This document shows positions 39,906-53,621 of a stretch of DNA of 64,000 nucleotides, piece after piece. The notes under the pieces are model-generated. The model did no database searches, was not told the DNA's origin, and saw only the letters and a program-made list of their open reading frames with translations. Positions within the stretch are counted from its first letter, which is position 1. Each line of letters begins with the position of its first letter. The position numbers and the translations under genes are program-made. The DNA comes from Pseudomonadota bacterium (lineage in GTDB: Bacteria; Desulfobacterota; Binatia; Binatales; Binataceae). The stretch covers positions 1 through 64,000 of the forward strand of contig JAJPIG010000007.1 of assembly GCA_021324855.1 (NCBI GenBank). Direction: 5' to 3'.

Positions 39906-41129
39906 TCAGGCTGACCTGCCGGGCGCGGCACGGGTGAAGCCCATGATCTTGATGTAGTACTCCCACTTCCTCAGATTGCCGGCTTCGTCATTCTGTTGGA
40001 ACGCGTAGGCGGGCGGTTCATCGTAACTCAAGACGCCCTTTTGATACGAAACCGTGCCCGGAGCGGCGTCGCCGCGATGGAGCCGGTTAAAGACCGCGCC
40101 GTCCTCCAGCGAAATAAGTCCGCTCGGGCCGAGCAGGTTCGATGACTGGCGGAGGCGATGCCGCAGCATCGCTTCATCGTCGTCCTGATGCGAGAAGTAG
40201 GCGTAATGGATTTCGACTTCGGCGGGGGAGCGCGGGAAGCCGAAGCGCACGTTGATTACGTCGCAGTGCTTCACGATAACCGTCATCGGGAACAGCGCCG
40301 TGATCGTGGAGCGCGGCTCGACGCGCCGATCTTTGAACTCGACAATCGAAGGATCGTTCAGGAATTCGGAATTGGCGCTGTCGCGCAACTCCGCTTCCAT
40401 CGCCATATGGCCCCTCTCGGTTACGAAGAACGTGCCCGTACCGCCCTGCCATCGGAGCAGCCGGAACGCACGATGGAGCAACGGCGCGTGATATCCCTCA
40501 TTGTCGTTGTACTCCTTCCAGTTCGTGGCGAAGGACGTCTTCTGATAGCCGAGCAGCTTCAGCCGGCCGTCGCCGCCCAGGATGGTGGCGAGATACGGCT
40601 TGGCTCCCCCAAGGTAGCTGTCGAGATCGAGCGCATCGCGGCCCATCGTGGCGAAAATCAGCCCTTTGAACTGATCGCTGCGCAGTTCGCGCAGACCGTA
40701 ATCCTGTTTGTTGAATTCAGCGGGGAAGCGCTCGCGCCCCGGACAGGCCATCAGCTCGCCCCGGTTATTGAAGAGCCATCGATGGTAGGGGCATTCGAAC
40801 TCGACCGCGTGGCCCCGCGAGCGCGTTTCGATCTGGGTCCCGCGATGGGTGCATGAATTGACGAAGACCCGCACGCGATCGTCGTCGCCGCGGAGGATCA
40901 GGATCGGCGTTTCAGCGATTTGGAAGGTCTTGAAGTCGCCCGGGTTCGGCAGCTCGGCGGCATGCGCCACCGGATGCCACTCCGGACCATAAAAGATCCG
41001 CTCGAGTTCAAGTCGGTAGATATCGGACCGATGGAAAACTTCTTTCGGCAGATCGCTGTAGCGCGCCGGCCACGTGAAATGCACCGGCTGTGACGCCGCG
41101 TCGGCCGAGTGATTCATCGCACTTGCCAT
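39906..41129 (-). CDS. Rieske non-haem iron oxygenase alpha subunit
   Basis: The 407-residue product has an N-terminal Rieske domain with ligands CTHRG and CPYHRW (C-x-H and C-x2-H) and a C-terminal mononuclear iron domain with NDNEGYHAPLLHR (H-x4-H). ATG 41129 follows GGAGGA. It would hydroxylate or demethylate an aromatic or similar substrate using O2 with electrons from a reductase. No beta subunit, ferredoxin or reductase is next to it. It is followed 18 bases upstream on the strand by an amidohydrolase, suggesting a small catabolic unit. Confidence 0.88.
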   Translation of the reverse strand: MASAMNHSADAASQPVHFTWPARYSDLPKEVFHRSDIYRLELERIFYGPEWHPVAHAAELPNPGDFKTFQIAETPILILRGDDDRVRVFVNSCTHRGTQIETRSRGHAVEFECPYHRWLFNNRGELMACPGRERFPAEFNKQDYGLRELRSDQFKGLIFATMGRDALDLDSYLGGAKPYLATILGGDGRLKLLGYQKTSFATNWKEYNDNEGYHAPLLHRAFRLLRWQGGTGTFFVTERGHMAMEAELRDSANSEFLNDPSIVEFKDRRVEPRSTITALFPMTVIVKHCDVINVRFGFPRSPAEVEIHYAYFSHQDDDEAMLRHRLRQSSNLLGPSGLISLEDGAVFNRLHRGDAAPGTVSYQKGVLSYDEPPAYAFQQNDEAGNLRKWEYYIKIMGFTRAAPGRSA

Positions 41130-43213: not shown

Positions 43214-45280
43214 GTGAAGGCGGGCGACGATTTCTTCAACTTCTATACCCACGATTTGATCCGGGTCGCGGTCGGAATTCCGGAGCTGCGCGTTGCCGAT
43301 CCGGCGTTTAATGGCGCCAAGACGATCGAGCTGATGCGCCAGGCGGCAGAGCGCAAGGCGATCATCGCGCTCTTCCCGGAACTCGGGCTCTCGGCCTATT
43401 CCTGCGATGACCTGTTCCACCAGCGCGCGCTGCTCGACGGATGCCATGCCGCGCTGGGCGAAGTTCTCGAAGCTTCCCGCACGATGTCGCTGGTGACGGT
43501 TGTCGGCATGCCCTTGCAGATCGAGAACCTGCTCTACAATTGCGCGGTCGTCGTATGCCGCGGGCGCGTGCTCGGCGTCGTCCCGAAGACTTACCTGCCC
43601 AACTATCGGGAATTTTATGAAGGCCGGCAGTTCACCCCCGGGAGCGCGGCCACGGCGACAACGATCGAACTCGCCGGCCAAAGAGACATTCCATTCGGCA
43701 GCGCGCTGCTCTTTCAGAGCCGTCAACAGCCGCTGCTCAAGCTGCACGTCGAGATCTGCGAGGACGTCTGGGTGCCGATTCCGCCCTCATCGTATGCGGC
43801 GCTCGCGGGCGCGACGGTGATACTTAACCTCTCGGCCTCCAACGTGATTGTCGCCAAGGCCGATTATCGCCGACAGCTCGTGTCGAGCCAGTCAGCGCGA
43901 TGCCTCGCAGCCTATCTCTATTCGGCCGCCGGACCCGGCGAATCGACCACCGACCTCGCATGGGATGGCCATGCGCTGATCTGTGAGAACGGCACGATGC
44001 TCGCCGAGTCGCAACGATTCGCCTACCATGCGCAGCTCGTCTGCTCCGAAATCGATCTCGAACGGCTCGCGCAAGAGCGGATGCGGCAGAACAGCTTCAG
44101 TCAGAACGCCCGCGCGGAACGCGATCGCACGCGCGATTTCCGCACCATCGAGTTTTCTTTCGATTTGCCGAAGGAGAAGAAGCTGTTGCCATCGCGCTCC
44201 TACGAGCGCTTTCCCTATGTACCCGCCGATCCCGGCAAGCGCGACGAGCGCTGCTCCGAGGTCTATGAAATCCAGGTCGAGGGTCTCGTCACGCGGCTCA
44301 AGGCGACGGGCATCAAGCGCGTCGTCCTCGGCATCTCCGGCGGAATCGATTCGACGCAGGCACTGCTGGTCTGCGCGCAGGCGATGGATCGCCTCGGTTA
44401 CCCGCGCACCGACATCTTCGCCTACACGATGCCGGGATTTGCGACCAGCGCGCGAACGTTGGAGCAGGCGCACCGCCTGATGGACGCGATCGGATGCCGC
44501 GCGGAAGAGATCGACATCCGGCCAGCCTGCATCCGGATGCTCAAAGACATCGGCCATCGGCATAGCGAAACCAACCCGGTCTACGACGTGACTTTCGAAA
44601 ACATCCAGGCGGGAGAGCGCACCAGCCATCTGTTCCGTCTCGCGAATCTGCACAATGGGCTGGTGATCGGCACCGGCGATCTGAGCGAGCTTGCGCTCGG
44701 ATGGTGCACGTATGGCGTCGGCGATCAGATGTCGCACTACGCGATCAACGCGAGCGTGCCGAAAACGCTGATCCAGCATGTCGTGCGATGGGTCGCGCAG
44801 CGCAAACACCTCGGCGAGGAAACCAGCCGCGTCCTGTTCGACATCCTTGCGACGCCGATTAGCCCCGAGCTGGTCCCTACGACGCCTGACGGCAAGGCCG
44901 CGCCGGCGACCGAAGAGACGATCGGTCCGTACGAGCTGCAGGATTTCAATCTTTTTTACACGTTGCGGTTTGGCTATCTGCCGTCGAAGATCGCCTTCCT
45001 GGCGTGGTGCGCATGGCACGATCGCGAGGCCGGCTCATGGCCTGAAATTGCGCCCGGCGATCGCCGCGAGTACCGAATCGCCGAGATCAAGCATAACCTG
45101 CACATCTTCCTGCATCGCTTTTTCAAGCTCAGCCAGTTCAAGCGCAGTTGCATCCCAAATGCGCCGAAAGTCGGATCGGGCGGATCGCTCTCACCGCGCG
45201 GCGATTATCGCGCGCCCAGCGACAGTGAGTCGGCGGTTTGGCTGGCGCAGCTCGAGAGCGTCCCCGCCAGCGAGCCATAG
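43214..45280 (+). CDS. nadE: Glutamine-dependent NAD+ synthetase
   Basis: The 688-residue product has an N-terminal nitrilase-type glutaminase with its Glu ([11 protein letters not shown]), Lys ([12 protein letters not shown]) and Cys ([11 protein letters not shown]), and a C-terminal ammonia-dependent synthetase with the P-loop [15 protein letters not shown] and [16 protein letters not shown]. It makes NAD from deamido-NAD, glutamine and ATP. The GTG start follows AAGGAG. It is a monocistron between divergent universal stress gene and the PQQ-dehydrogenase unit. nadA lies 17 kb away in this window. Confidence 0.96.
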
Positions 45281-45311
45281 CTCTCGACGTTCGGGGCTGC
45301 GGGGCCGTTCC

Positions 45312-45340
45312 TTGAACGCGTTCCGAAATCGCACTATAGC
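45312..45340 (+). promoter_or_regulatory. Candidate sigma70-type promoter for the PQQ-dehydrogenase unit
   Basis: TTGAAC (45312-45317), a 17-base spacer and TATAGC (45335-45340) match the consensus hexamers 4 of 6 each, about 40 bases upstream of the PQQ dehydrogenase start. It would drive the dehydrogenase and cytochrome c genes. Confidence 0.45.
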
Positions 45341-45380
45341 CAACTTTGAGCCTCGCTTGTGGAAGGACAATAGAAAGAGG

Positions 45381-47090
45381 ATGGCGCGACCAATCACAGT
45401 TTGGACTCGGATGAGCATCGCGGGGATTGCGGCGCTCGGATTGCTCCTGATGCTGGCGGGCAGCGCACGCCCCGACGATTCAGGCGGCGCGCAGTGGTCG
45501 GCATATGGGCGCGACGAGTCCAACCGCCATTTCAGTCCGCTTGCGCAGATCAAACCCGACAACCTCAAGCATCTGCACGTCGTCTGGGCCTTCTCGCTCG
45601 GCGCGCTGCGTTCCAATGAATCGACGCCGCTGGTGATCGGCGACACTATGTACGTCTCGAGTTCCTGGGGACCGCGCTTTGTCTACGCACTCGATGCGGC
45701 GACCGGCGCATTGAAATGGCGCTACCAGTCGCACATCCCAGAAAGCGTCATCCAGTACGCCTGCTGCGATGTCGGCAATCGCGGCGTCGCGTACGCCGAC
45801 GGCAAGGTCATCGTCGGCCAGCTCGATGGCAGGCTGGTCGCCCTCGATGCGAAGACCGGCAAGCCGGTCTGGAAGGCGACGGTGATCGATTACAAGCTCG
45901 GCGCCGTAATCACATCGCCGCCGGTGATCGCGGGCAACAAGGTAATCACGGGTTTCGGCGGAGCGGAGTACGGCGTCCGCGGCTACCTGTCGGCCTACGA
46001 TCTCGCGACCGGCAAACCGCTCTGGCGCACCTATACCGTACCGGGACCAGGCGAGCCGGGGCATGACACCTGGAAAGGCGATAGCTGGAAGCATGGTGGG
46101 GCGGTTTCGTGGGTGGTCGGCTCGTACGACCCGAGGCTCAACATCGTCTACTTCGGCACCAGCAACCCCGGACCTTGGGAGGCCGGTGAACGCTCCAACA
46201 ACAGGCCCGACGACCAGTACACGAATCTTTATAGTTCCAGCGTCGTGGCGCTCGATCCCGATACGGGCAAGATGCTGTGGTACATCCAGTACACGCCCGA
46301 TGATGCGTGGGACTACGACGGCGTCAACGAATCGGTGCTTGCTGATCTGACTATCAACGGCAAGACCGAGCCGGTGCTGATGCACGCGGACCGGAACGGT
46401 TTCTTCTTCGTTGCCAATCGCAAGACCGGCCGCGTGATTTCGGCGCGTCCGTTCGTCCATGTCGATTGGGCAAAAGGATGGAATCTCGAGACCGGACGGC
46501 CGATCGAAAATCCCGACAAACGCCCGACGCTGACCAAGCAGGTCGATGTCTGCCCGAGCATGCTGGGCGGCAAGAACTGGCAGCCGATGTCCTTCGACCC
46601 GCAAACGCAGTTGGTCTACATCCCGACCAATAATCTCTGCGTTCATGCTGGGGAGGAGAAGACCGAATATCACAAGGGCGGGATGTTTCTTGGGCTTAAT
46701 CCGGCGCTTCTCTATCCGGATAAGGGCGGTTACGAAGGCGCGATGATCGCCTGGAATCCGCTCACGCAGTCTGAAGTCTGGAAGGTGAAGGAGCCGCTAT
46801 GGTTCGTCGGCGGCGCGCTCTCGACGGCCGGCGGTCTGGTCTTTTACGGTTCGATGGATGGATGGTTCAAGGCGGTCGATGCGCGCAGCGGCGACGTCCT
46901 GTGGAAGTTCCGCACCGGCAGCGGCGTGATGGCGGCGCCGATCACTTATGAGATCGCCGGCCGGCAATACGTCGCCGTGGTCTCCGGGCGTAGCGTCATG
47001 ATGCCCAACTGGCTCGGAAAGTTCGGCGAAGAGGCTTCGCGTGCGACCCCGGAATCCGGAATGCTGTTCGTATTCGCCCTCGACGAATGA
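45381..47090 (+). CDS. PQQ-dependent alcohol dehydrogenase, lanthanide-type signature
   Basis: The 569-residue product (ATG 45381; the ORF-track start is inside nadE) has a signal-anchor N-terminus and the eight-blade quinoprotein repeats. The vicinal Cys pair is YACCDVGNRG (128-129). Metal/PQQ ligands fit E196 (GGAEYG) and N262 (GTSNPGPW), and the catalytic Asp is D311 in AWDYDGVNES. The extra Asp at D313 is the residue that distinguishes lanthanide-dependent XoxF/ExaF/PedH enzymes from Ca-dependent MxaF (Ala there). The cytochrome c gene overlaps its stop by 4 bases and is the probable electron acceptor. Substrate (methanol, ethanol or other) is not determined. Confidence 0.9.
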   Translation: MARPITVWTRMSIAGIAALGLLLMLAGSARPDDSGGAQWSAYGRDESNRHFSPLAQIKPDNLKHLHVVWAFSLGALRSNESTPLVIGDTMYVSSSWGPRFVYALDAATGALKWRYQSHIPESVIQYACCDVGNRGVAYADGKVIVGQLDGRLVALDAKTGKPVWKATVIDYKLGAVITSPPVIAGNKVITGFGGAEYGVRGYLSAYDLATGKPLWRTYTVPGPGEPGHDTWKGDSWKHGGAVSWVVGSYDPRLNIVYFGTSNPGPWEAGERSNNRPDDQYTNLYSSSVVALDPDTGKMLWYIQYTPDDAWDYDGVNESVLADLTINGKTEPVLMHADRNGFFFVANRKTGRVISARPFVHVDWAKGWNLETGRPIENPDKRPTLTKQVDVCPSMLGGKNWQPMSFDPQTQLVYIPTNNLCVHAGEEKTEYHKGGMFLGLNPALLYPDKGGYEGAMIAWNPLTQSEVWKVKEPLWFVGGALSTAGGLVFYGSMDGWFKAVDARSGDVLWKFRTGSGVMAAPITYEIAGRQYVAVVSGRSVMMPNWLGKFGEEASRATPESGMLFVFALDE

Positions 47091-47491
47091 TTCGATCGCG
47101 TAGCCGGAGCGTATTTTTGCGGCTGGTTTTAGCACTGCTCGCGGCCGGTGCATGCCCATTTGCATGGTCCGGAACGGCTTTCGCTCAGAGCGCCTCCCAG
47201 CCGTCGCAGCCGGGCGCAATCGAGCGGGGTCATCATCTCTTCAATTCGCAGTGCGCACATTGTCACGGTGAAGACGCCAGCGCGGAGGATGATTATTACA
47301 ATCTGCCGCAATTACTGATCGACAAGAACGATGCGTTCTTCTTCGCGACGGTCAACAAGGGATTGCCGGAGAAGGGGATGCCGCCCTGGAAGGACGTGCT
47401 CAAGCCGCGTCAGATTGCCGATCTGCTCGCCTACATCCGATCGCTGGAGCGCGAACAGGGCTTGATCGATAATCAGGCGCCGGCACACTGA
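47087..47491 (+). CDS. Class I cytochrome c, partner of the PQQ dehydrogenase
   Basis: The 134-residue product has a signal peptide (LRLVLALLAAGACPFAW...AFAQ), one haem-attachment motif CAHCH (56-60) and a Met-ligand region EKGMPPWKD. The start overlaps the dehydrogenase stop by 4 bases. It would take electrons from PQQ in the periplasm and pass them to a terminal oxidase. A hydrophobic stop-transfer tail is absent, so it is soluble. Confidence 0.93.
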   Translation: MIRSRSRSVFLRLVLALLAAGACPFAWSGTAFAQSASQPSQPGAIERGHHLFNSQCAHCHGEDASAEDDYYNLPQLLIDKNDAFFFATVNKGLPEKGMPPWKDVLKPRQIADLLAYIRSLEREQGLIDNQAPAH

Positions 47492-47518
47492 CCGGGCATC
47501 GAAGCCACGGAGCCCAAC

Positions 47519-47911
47519 ATGGCCGTCAAACGCGAGCATTTGAAGCCATCCTGGGAAGCCCAATTCACATACTCTCCCGCGGTGATCACGGAGGGCGGAC
47601 GCGTGGTCTGGCTCGCCGGCCAGGTCGGAATAGTCGATGACAACGGCAAGCCGATTACCGACTTCGATTCGCAGGTGCGTCAGGCATTTCGCAATGTCGA
47701 AAAGGTGCTCGCGCGTGCCGGCGGCAAGCTCAGCGACCTCGTTACGATGACGGCATTCATCAATGACGCGAGCAAGTCACAGCGCTTCACGACCATCCGG
47801 GGTGAATTCTTTCCCGGCGATTTCCCGGCGAGCGCGCTGCTCACGGTAGCCGGTTTCGCCGTGCCCGAGATCATGGTCGAGATTCAGAGCGTCGCGGTGC
47901 TCGACAAGTAA
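47519..47911 (+). CDS. Rid (YjgF/YER057c) family protein
   Basis: The 130-residue product has the Rid fold: WLAGQVGIVDDNGKPITDFDSQVRQAFRNVEKVLARAGG. In RidA the catalytic Arg lies in an ARS motif before a V-x-V strand; here the segment reads FPASALLTVAGFAVP with no Arg. It is therefore unlikely to be a classical 2-iminoacid deaminase and more likely a Rid-subfamily member of other role. It lies 27 bases after the cytochrome c gene and may share its transcript. Confidence 0.87.
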   Translation: MAVKREHLKPSWEAQFTYSPAVITEGGRVVWLAGQVGIVDDNGKPITDFDSQVRQAFRNVEKVLARAGGKLSDLVTMTAFINDASKSQRFTTIRGEFFPGDFPASALLTVAGFAVPEIMVEIQSVAVLDK

Positions 47912-47919
47912 TCCACGGG

Positions 47920-49077
47920 TCAGGCCGCAGAGCTGCCCCAGACCTCCCGCGCCACATCGACACAGAGCCGAAGCTTCGCCCATTGCTCCGCTTCGGTGAT
48001 GTTGTTGCCCTCCTCAGTGCTGGCGAAGCCGCACTGCGGGCTCAGCGCAAGCTGATCGATCGACGCGTACTTCGCCGCAGCGTCGATCTGCCGACGAAGG
48101 TCGTCCTTGCGCTCCATCGTGCCGGTCTTGCTCGTGACGAGGCCGAGCACTGCAGTCTTGCCTTTGGGCAGGAATCGCAACGGCTCAAAACCGCCGGCGC
48201 GCTCGCTGTCGTATTCGAGGAAATAAGCATCAAGATCGATCTCATTGAACAGCACCTCGGCCACGGGTTCGTAGCCGCCGGCGGCGACCCAGGTCGAGCG
48301 GAAATTACCGCGACACAAATGCATCGCGGCGATCATCCCCGCGGGCCTGGTGCTGAGGGCCCGATTCACAATGTATGCGTAGTCGCGCGCGAGACGCTCG
48401 CGGTAAACTCCGCGCTCCTTCGCCTGCTCGATCTGCGCCGGATCGCAGAGCATCGCAAGCGTGGTTTCGTCGAGTTGCAAATAGCGACATCCAGCAGCGC
48501 CGAATGCCCGGACCGCTTCGGTGTAGGTATCGCCGATGTCTGCGAGAAAAGTGTCCATGTCGCGGTAGCCCGCGCTCGCAACCGCCTGGGGCGCAAATCG
48601 GAAATGCAAAAACGCGGGCGCCGGGATGGTCTGCTTGGCAAGCGCCGAGCCGGCATGCGCGGCGACAAAGCGGAAGTGATCGAGAAACGGATGCTGCGGA
48701 TTCCATCCGACTTTGCCGGTGACCTGTAATCGATGGCGGTGGACAAATCCCGAGCTGCGCGCGGCAGTGCCGGGAATCATCGCCTGCTCGCGAACCAGAG
48801 AAAGTCCGTTGAGCGCGCCAAGAAAATCGAGATGCCAATAAAGGCGGCGAAACTCGCCGTCGGTCACGGTGCGCAACCCCACTTCCACCTGCGATCCGAT
48901 CGCGCGCTCGATGAGTCGATCTTCGATCGCACGGAGTTCATCGCCCGAAAGCGCGCCCGCCTCGGCGCGCTCGCGCGCCTGCTTCAGCTCCGCAGGGCGC
49001 AGGAGGCTACCAACATGGTCCGCATGCGACGGCAGCTTCGGTCGTTGCCCTATATCGTTTCGAGAGTCATCAGCCAT
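47920..49077 (-). CDS. MetE-like (cobalamin-independent methionine synthase family) protein, short form
   Basis: The 385-residue product (ATG 49077) has only a catalytic-domain-type barrel: the DHVGSLLRP N-terminal motif, MHLCRGNFRSTW (zinc His and Cys) and LALSPQCGFAST (zinc Cys). Full MetE is about twice as long. Short archaeal-type and bacterial forms in this family move methyl groups to thiols or from other donors. A second member lies at 60922. It is convergent with the Rid gene, separated by 8 bases. Confidence 0.87.
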   Translation of the reverse strand: MADDSRNDIGQRPKLPSHADHVGSLLRPAELKQARERAEAGALSGDELRAIEDRLIERAIGSQVEVGLRTVTDGEFRRLYWHLDFLGALNGLSLVREQAMIPGTAARSSGFVHRHRLQVTGKVGWNPQHPFLDHFRFVAAHAGSALAKQTIPAPAFLHFRFAPQAVASAGYRDMDTFLADIGDTYTEAVRAFGAAGCRYLQLDETTLAMLCDPAQIEQAKERGVYRERLARDYAYIVNRALSTRPAGMIAAMHLCRGNFRSTWVAAGGYEPVAEVLFNEIDLDAYFLEYDSERAGGFEPLRFLPKGKTAVLGLVTSKTGTMERKDDLRRQIDAAAKYASIDQLALSPQCGFASTEEGNNITEAEQWAKLRLCVDVAREVWGSSAA

Positions 49078-49204
49078 CTTTTCGATCACGCTCCTATTCG
49101 CCCGACGTTCATGAGCTTACGATTCCACATCCCGATTTGACAGCAGAGTGGCAGCCCGCGTCCATGTTTCGTATAACGGCGGCATCGGCCCGGAGGTGAG
49201 TCGG

Positions 49205-51750: not shown

Positions 51751-52248
51751 TCAGAATGGAACTACCAGGCCTTCGAGCACGCTGTCGGAGTTGATCAGGT
51801 CGACGCGCTTCCACGCGATCCTGAAGCTGTCGTCGGCGCGGACTAAGCGATGCGTGCAGGTCCCGGCGAAGATCCGCTGATTGTCGAGTCGGAACTCGAC
51901 CATCATCAGCTTCGATCGCACGGTCAGCGCCCGGCCGTCGGCGGCGGTCTCCTCGAGAGTCGCATTAGCGACGATCCGGCTGGTGCGCGACGGCGGCTGC
52001 TGTGCGTGAGGCTGCGTGCTCATCAGGCGACGCACGCGGGTTTCGAGCAGGCGGCGATCGTCGTACATCAACGAGATCGTGTCGTACGGGCTGCGCTGAC
52101 CCGGCTCCGATGGCACCCAGTACCAGGCATCCGCGGTGAACAGCGCGAGCCATTCATCGTAGCGGGCCTCATCGAGAAGCCGCGCCTCATGGATCAGGAA
52201 GAGCTCGACCTGCTCCGTTGCGCGATCGCCGCGCAAAACCGCGCTCAT
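51751..52248 (-). CDS. Ring-hydroxylating oxygenase beta (small) subunit
   Basis: The 165-residue product (ATG 52248, overlapping the alpha stop by 4 bases) matches the small subunit of aromatic dioxygenases: EQVELFLIHEARLLDEARYDEWLALFT, YDDRRLLETRVRRL and HRLVRADDSFRIAWKRVDLIN. It gives structural support to the alpha subunit in an alpha3beta3 complex. It should form a two-subunit oxygenase with the gene at 52245. Confidence 0.92.
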   Translation of the reverse strand: MSAVLRGDRATEQVELFLIHEARLLDEARYDEWLALFTADAWYWVPSEPGQRSPYDTISLMYDDRRLLETRVRRLMSTQPHAQQPPSRTSRIVANATLEETAADGRALTVRSKLMMVEFRLDNQRIFAGTCTHRLVRADDSFRIAWKRVDLINSDSVLEGLVVPF

Positions 52249-53621
52249 TTGGACACGGCCCGCTGCTCGGGCCACTCGATGCGCCGCACAGGTTGAGCCT
52301 GCTCGTCGGTCATGAAGCCGAGCCAGGCGTCAAACATGTTGCGGATGTAGATTTCGCTGGTCGAGTTTTTGCCGCGGCGTCCGCCGGTCTCGTCAGCGAG
52401 GTCGCTGGTGTAGCCGCGTCCGATCTCCAACCATTCGGCGCCGCCGCTTGCGAGACCGATCCCGATACGATTGTAGGTCTCGAGATCATCGGTCAGCACC
52501 AGCGAGCCCGTGCCGTTGACGATGTTCGCGAAGCTGATCGTCCGCTCGAACATCTTCTCGGGTGCGCCCTTCAGCCGGAAATTGTAAGTGTAGACCACCG
52601 TTCGATTGAGCCCGATTGGATGAACCACGCGGAGCTGCTGGAATTGGCTCATGAACGACAGGTTCGGATAGACGTTGCTGTTCCATCGCCGCACGGAAAG
52701 GATGCGCGCGGTTTCATCAGTACCCTTTCTGGTTTCCAGCGCCGTGATGTACTGACGAAATGCGGGATCATTGAGCGCCGCAACCAGCTTCGCGTCGTCA
52801 TGATAATCGCCGAGGAAGCTGTGCCCGTTCGGATACGTCCAGATGCCGACCTGCGATTCCCAGAAGCTGTACGGCGCTCCGTTTTGCCGCATCTGACGAA
52901 TCGCGATCTCGCCCGATCCGTCGGAATAGACGCTGTCCGACTGCTGCTCAGCGGCAGCGATCGACGACTGATGGACGAAAATCGGATGCGCCGCGTCGCA
53001 CAAATTTTCGAGATACACCTTCCAGTTCGCGTTATAAGCGTGCTTGAAAACTCCACCCGCGGCTTCCAGCTCGCCGTCGGGCGCGCGATCGACCATGTCA
53101 TCGAACGACGTGGTCATATAGCCAAGGAACTCTTCGAGGCTTGGTCCATGATCGGCGAGACTGGCGAAGACGAATCCGCGATAGTTGGCGACGCGCCGCA
53201 CCTGCACCATCGCGATGCCCGGATCTTTGGGGTCGAAGTGCGCCGGATAACCGTGCGGCAGAGAGACCGCCTTCAGCCGTCCGTCAGTATGGTACGTCCA
53301 GCCGTGATAGCAGCATCTAAATTCGCTGGCGTTGCCGCGCTCGCCGGCGACCACCATCGTGCCCCGATGGGCGCATTGGTTATGCAATACGTAAATTTTG
53401 CCGTCCTGGTGCCGCACCATGACCAGCGGCTTGCGCCCGATCCGAGTCGTGCGATAATCGCCGGGCGCCTTAACTTCGCTCTCATGACCGACATAGATCC
53501 ATGCACGCTCGAAGATCCGCTCCATCTCGAGCTCGAAGATGCGCGGATCAGTGTAGAGGCTTCGATGGACACGTCCGGGCTGAACGAGCTCGCGCAGATG
53601 AGCGGCGGAATAATCTGTCAT
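52245..53621 (-). CDS. Ring-hydroxylating oxygenase alpha subunit (Rieske)
   Basis: The 458-residue product has an N-terminal Rieske domain (QCAHRG and FRCCYHGW: C-x-H and C-x2-H) and a catalytic domain with LENLCDAAHPIFVH (D-x2-H-x4-H iron site). It hydroxylates an aromatic substrate with O2. The coupled beta subunit follows. No ferredoxin or reductase gene is within the window, so electrons must come from proteins elsewhere. It is only distantly related to the single-subunit oxygenase at 39906. Confidence 0.93.
   Translation of the reverse strand: MTDYSAAHLRELVQPGRVHRSLYTDPRIFELEMERIFERAWIYVGHESEVKAPGDYRTTRIGRKPLVMVRHQDGKIYVLHNQCAHRGTMVVAGERGNASEFRCCYHGWTYHTDGRLKAVSLPHGYPAHFDPKDPGIAMVQVRRVANYRGFVFASLADHGPSLEEFLGYMTTSFDDMVDRAPDGELEAAGGVFKHAYNANWKVYLENLCDAAHPIFVHQSSIAAAEQQSDSVYSDGSGEIAIRQMRQNGAPYSFWESQVGIWTYPNGHSFLGDYHDDAKLVAALNDPAFRQYITALETRKGTDETARILSVRRWNSNVYPNLSFMSQFQQLRVVHPIGLNRTVVYTYNFRLKGAPEKMFERTISFANIVNGTGSLVLTDDLETYNRIGIGLASGGAEWLEIGRGYTSDLADETGGRRGKNSTSEIYIRNMFDAWLGFMTDEQAQPVRRIEWPEQRAVSK

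Follow-up and report, generated by a model that had tools for sequence, protein, structure and literature searches.

A probable lanthanide-type PQQ alcohol dehydrogenase encoded with its own cytochrome c in a Binatota-like bacterium

The window analyzed here is a 64-kb stretch of DNA from a 3.75 Mb genome that is 96% complete, and it carries two overlapping genes whose features are collected in Table 1. The product of the first, P0001, was initially annotated as a PQQ alcohol dehydrogenase, and profile searches agree: it scores 649.5 bits against TIGR03075 (PQQ-dependent dehydrogenase, methanol/ethanol family), above the curated membership cut-off of 480.05 bits. Its N-terminus resembles a signal peptide, and an AlphaFold2 model built from an alignment of 39 sequences (pLDDT 87.8, pTM 0.88) is a beta-propeller. 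The best fold matches of this model are the XoxF structures 4mae (TM 0.89) and 6fkw (0.88), along with PedH (0.88), XoxF2 and XoxF1 being the nearest solved structures. The vicinal cysteines typical of PQQ alcohol dehydrogenases (PQQ-ADHs) are shared with 10/10 references and 110 of 111 related loci. No CxxCH motif occurs in P0001; the haem motif sits instead in the next ORF, encoding the cytochrome P0002.

Table 1. Features of the dehydrogenase-cytochrome locus (window positions) and of the PQQ and xox gene cluster elsewhere in the genome
Feature	Position	Strand	Basis or remark
PQQ-dependent alcohol dehydrogenase P0001, 569 aa	45381..47090	+	ORF call and TIGR03075
C128-C129, vicinal cysteines	45762..45767	+	alignment
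E196, metal ligand (= E172 of SolV XoxF)	45966..45968	+	alignment
N262, metal ligand (= N256 of SolV XoxF)	46164..46166	+	alignment
D311, catalytic Asp (= D299 of SolV XoxF)	46311..46313	+	alignment
D313, second Asp marking lanthanide-type enzymes (= D301 of SolV XoxF)	46317..46319	+	alignment; PMC8561711, PMC11996626
C-terminal segment GRSVMMPNWLGKFGE, replacing the GxGG(W/A/V) motif	46986..47030	+	clade comparison
ATGA stop/start overlap of dehydrogenase and cytochrome genes, 4 nt	47087..47090	+	translational coupling likely; same overlap in L032
Monohaem cytochrome c P0002, 134 aa; signal-peptide-like start, one CAHCH haem motif, Met ligand in KGMPPW	47087..47491	+	
pqqA-B-C-D-E, M16 peptidase, xoxF, xoxJ, xoxG	contig C34, L112 3200-12768 (about 229199-238767)		compact cluster
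pqqA	contig C34, L112 3200-3274		

The catalytic aspartate of P0001 lies in a WDYD motif (residues 310-313; window 46308-46319), confirming the DYD on which the initial annotation had rested its lanthanide assignment. In an alignment with sequences of solved structures, the five lanthanide references (4mae, 7o6z, 6oc6, 6dam and PedH) all have Asp two residues on (D+2), and the five Ca references have Ala, Thr, Thr, Thr and Ser. The earlier statement that Ca enzymes have Ala or Ser there was thus right about these two residues but incomplete, since three references have Thr. The Ala at D+2 that serves as the criterion for MxaF is replaced by Asp313 in P0001. Among the related loci, 103 of 111 have Asp at D+2 and all eight exceptions fall outside the clade of P0001, while alignments of 39-41 sequences show no variation at D311, D313, N262 or either cysteine. 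Such clade-wide retention of the second Asp argues against chance. In the literature the D-x-D motif is taken to indicate lanthanide use that is at least facultative (PMC11996626, PMC8561711). However, the motif alone is no proof of such use because it is also found in membrane glucose dehydrogenases, enzymes whose characterization involved other metals, and members of a single PQQ-ADH type can differ in the metal they use (PMC11996626). Likewise, the XoxF1 of Methylocella bears the Asp and yet is repressed by lanthanum (PMC9291206). Taken together, the metal-site residues and the second Asp kept throughout the clade make it likely that P0001 uses a lanthanide. We also checked the TonB receptors as candidates for lanthanide uptake and found four, none of them assignable to this function; of the two gene sets that the initial annotation had proposed to seek in the genome, pqqABCDE was found and no uptake gene was identified.

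These observations also bear on a rival reading, in which P0001 is a PQQ alcohol dehydrogenase working with Ca or with mixed metals and simply happens to have the second Asp. Besides the occurrence of DxD in membrane glucose dehydrogenases (PMC11996626), it could draw on the KNWQPM segment of P0001, which resembles that of the Ca-type quinohaemoprotein ADHs (QH-ADHs), and on an AU test that does not reject a joint clade with these enzymes (p-AU 0.39). It is opposed by the Ala, Thr or Ser seen at D+2 in 5/5 Ca references and by the Asp kept across the P0001 clade, and we regard it as rather unlikely.

To place P0001 among PQQ-ADHs we built two trees, of 60 and 55 proteins, XoxF4 and Mdh2 being absent from both. 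In each, P0001 falls in a clade of its own (support 100/99 and 100/100, respectively), with proteins from other Binatota-like genomes, Bradyrhizobium, Afipia, Rhodopila, Lichenicoccus, Rivibacter, Aquincola and one Acidiferrobacteraceae MAG. XoxF and MxaF make up another clade (100/100), which includes the XoxF encoded elsewhere in the same genome and excludes P0001; in the first tree the two clades are sisters (95/93). The quinoprotein tree proposed as a check on the initial annotation therefore shows an independent clade. AU tests reject joining it with PedH (p-AU 1.6e-12) or with the XoxF3-like proteins L134/L136 (p-AU 9.5e-8) and weakly reject the ExaA/PedH group as a whole (0.026); clustering with Ca enzymes, which the initial annotation had named as a refutation, is compatible with the AU test on the Ca-type QH-ADHs (0.39), which may or may not be the nearest sister. 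We take L134 to be XoxF3-like from its cox/ctaG/xoxJ/xoxG neighbours. This protein, from the window's own genus (G001, contig C249), has the catalytic motif HDYD, with His where Trp is usual. Separately, L133, L139 and L140 are PQQ-ADHs with WDWDEV that group away from XoxF and have a short gene just upstream.

The clade also differs in its C-terminal region. Among 84 distinct members, each at least 52% identical to P0001, none has GxGG(W/A/V) near the C-terminus (vs 26 of 37 other PQQ-ADHs), and 82 have GR..P..LG in its place. Judging from motifs and from trees without XoxF4, the branch of P0001 is a widespread one in its own strongly supported clade, belonging neither to XoxF (clades 1-5) nor to ExaF/PedH (type 2b). 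The initial call of a lanthanide-type dehydrogenase with its cytochrome is supported by the metal-site residues, the second Asp kept across the clade and the conserved gene pair; the trees and AU tests go against its filing under XoxF/ExaF/PedH. By architecture P0001 is not a type II quinohaemoprotein ADH either, its chain having no C-terminal haem c domain. The clade probably corresponds to one of the uncharacterized types among the PQQ-ADH types 1-9 of Keltjens and the predicted lanthanide enzymes of Bradyrhizobium.

A divergent XoxF methanol dehydrogenase, for instance XoxF3, feeding methylotrophy alongside the xoxFJG cluster of this genome, would agree with the nearest solved structures, with the sister position to XoxF and MxaF in the first tree, and with the prediction that Binatota are methylotrophs (PMC8262859). 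We nevertheless consider it improbable, as P0001 lies outside the XoxF and MxaF clade, is kept from the XoxF3-like proteins by the AU test and is missing the GVGGW motif, and as a true XoxF with XoxJ and XoxG is already encoded in the genome. The KNWQPM segment of P0001 is as in ExaA, PedH and QH-ADH, which are multi-carbon alcohol dehydrogenases, vs KDQQPA in XoxF. In methanol dehydrogenase the Gly-Trp of GVGGW contacts PQQ and the substrate pocket; its absence from the clade suggests that the pocket is altered and that the substrate is larger than methanol. The substrate of P0001 would be a primary alcohol, more likely one of C2 or longer than methanol.

The initial annotation had also described a cytochrome c gene overlapping the stop codon of the dehydrogenase gene, and this is what we find. 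P0002 passes the cut-offs of general haem c families only; its scores against the curated XoxG/MoxG/PedF equivalogs lie far below (MoxG 32.4 vs 147.8 bits, PedF 30.9 vs 122 bits), and it is far under the cut-off of every named methanol or ethanol cytochrome family. It is, however, about 49-55% identical to the cytochromes at the same position in L004, L032/L003, L033/L005 and L009. Comparison of these loci shows the pair to be kept in five genomes, with neighbours that differ in each relative, which marks the two genes as a conserved unit. The RidA-family gene 28 nt downstream (47519-47911) and the upstream NAD synthase have no homologues at the relatives' loci and are hence ruled out as members. 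A promoter-like element had been proposed to precede the unit, a claim that finds no support here: a sigma-70 scan of 45200-48000 gave no plus-strand promoter upstream of the dehydrogenase gene, and the match found by eye, TTGAAC-17-TATAGC (8/12), is below the scan threshold. Elsewhere in the window, a stand-alone cobalamin-independent methionine synthase-like protein of the PRK06520 family (47920-49089) is convergent to the RidA-family gene, and two Rieske oxygenases are encoded at 39906-41129 and 52245-53621, the latter a ring-hydroxylating alpha subunit adjoined by a small ORF (51751-52275) resembling a beta subunit.

The origin of this cytochrome becomes apparent from the wider clade. In 77/77 other named loci (L035-L111), drawn from the best 80 matches and forming a redundant set that is mostly Bradyrhizobium, the gene after the orthologous dehydrogenase encodes a XoxJ-cytochrome fusion, mostly of 370-480 aa. 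TIGR03871 (XoxJ/MoxJ-like) matches the N-terminal part of six fusions (E 1e-25 to 1e-33), and P0002 is roughly 31-45% identical to the C-terminal haem domain of the fusions as a whole set. The fusion also follows the dehydrogenase in the Binatota-like paralogues L007, L008 and L030; in five Binatota-like genomes the cytochrome part alone is left, and the L006/L034 loci have no such cytochrome nearby. As the deepest split of the clade separates L007/L008/L030 from the Pseudomonadota and the fusion is present on both sides, the simplest reading is that the ancestor of the clade already had it and that a single loss removed XoxJ in the subclade of P0001. That P0002 is an unrelated respiratory c-type cytochrome lying downstream by chance, as its matching of general haem c families only might be taken to mean, is very hard to reconcile with the overlap of the genes, the conservation of the pair amid differing flanks and the fact that its best homologues are haem domains fused to XoxJ beside orthologous dehydrogenases. 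We favor, with a probability of about 70%, the joint explanation that P0001 is a secreted periplasmic quinoprotein alcohol dehydrogenase using a lanthanide, with P0002 as its dedicated electron acceptor.

The absence of PQQ synthesis genes asserted in the initial annotation holds for the window, where tblastn with the genome's own Pqq proteins finds none. The genome as a whole does have pqqABCDE, on contig C34 in one cluster with the only further PQQ-ADH above the family cut-off, a XoxF. The M16 peptidase of this cluster is PqqF-like (881 aa), and the sole XoxJ copy of the genome is the one at xoxF. The cluster is in keeping with the xoxFGJ and PQQ synthesis genes reported in some Binatota (PMC8262859). 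Its XoxG has 256 aa and two haem motifs (CFSCH, CYRCH).

The situation is different in two genomes of a sister genus, G011 (94% complete) and G024 (87%), in which the dehydrogenase-cytochrome pair contains the sole PQQ-ADH of the family, and profile searches for XoxJ, PqqB, PqqC and PqqE give no match above cut-off. All three Pqq families were matched in the other 6/6 genomes searched for them. Since the pqq and xox genes adjoin, one missing contig could explain the absence in either genome taken singly. For both to have this gap the chance is about 1% if gaps are independent, and missing contigs are unlikely to account for it. Taken at face value, the gap would mean that the dehydrogenase needs no XoxJ there and uses external PQQ, just as the glucose dehydrogenase of E. 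coli uses PQQ from outside. Gene content thus suggests that the pair can work on its own, perhaps with PQQ scavenged from outside. It is possible, though we hold this only tentatively, that it constitutes a self-sufficient two-gene lanthanide dehydrogenase-cytochrome module, in a third uncharacterized branch that has discarded XoxJ and that in the sister genus lives on the PQQ of neighbours. Two other relatives, G008 and G016, have two separate pqqB/pqqC/pqqE sets per genome.

In the proposed mechanism, P0001 would bind PQQ, supplied in this genome by pqqABCDE of contig C34, together with a light lanthanide liganded by E196, N262, D311 and D313, and would oxidize a primary alcohol to the aldehyde in the periplasm. 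The co-translated P0002 would accept the electrons singly and feed them into the respiratory chain. In the ancestral clade the dehydrogenase would have been paired with the XoxJ-cytochrome c fusion as periplasmic activator and acceptor in one. After the loss of XoxJ, the Binatota-like subclade may borrow this protein from a separate xoxFJG cluster, or XoxJ may be dispensable.

The biochemically confirmed lanthanide enzymes are XoxF and type 2b (ExaF/PedH) only (PMC11996626). A third lineage in many Bradyrhizobium and other bacteria, if true, would extend lanthanide biology beyond methanol and ethanol. In Methylorubrum growing on methanol with La, losing xoxJ has the same effect as losing XoxF, and a function for XoxJ has so far only been suggested (PMC7391723). 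The series from XoxJ-cytochrome fusion to cytochrome only, and on to genomes with neither XoxJ nor PQQ genes, offers a natural test of the role of XoxJ. As far as the literature searched shows, the fusion, its trimming and the PQQ-less genomes would be new.

Among known systems, the XoxF lanthanide methanol dehydrogenases (SolV 4mae, XoxF1/XoxF5, with XoxG and XoxJ) are alike in fold (TM 0.89), in metal ligands including the second Asp, in PQQ and in a cytochrome acceptor encoded next door. P0001 differs from them in its separate clade, the absence of GVGGW, KNWQPM rather than KDQQPA, an identity of about 40-44% and a locus without XoxJ. With the lanthanide ethanol dehydrogenases ExaF/PedH it has in common the DxD site, the KNW segment and the fold (TM 0.88), but it is 39% identical, has a different C-terminus, and its grouping with PedH is rejected (p 1.6e-12). 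The type II quinohaemoprotein ADHs (1kv9, 1kb0, 1yiq), possibly a neighbouring branch, share the KNW/HNW segment and about 40% identity; in contrast to them, P0001 has no fused haem, has Asp for their Thr and is paired with a small separate cytochrome. The clade fusion is comparable to cytochrome cGJ, the XoxG/J fusion of Methylacidiphilum (PMC8170126), in uniting activator and cytochrome in one chain, a likeness of composition; in the clade XoxJ comes first and the haem last, and the subclade of P0001 has the haem part only. Finally, Bradyrhizobium has several uncharacterized predicted lanthanide PQQ dehydrogenases of unknown function (PMC12628762), and the P0001 clade is likewise common in this genus; the class is therefore foreshadowed by these enzymes and not unprecedented.
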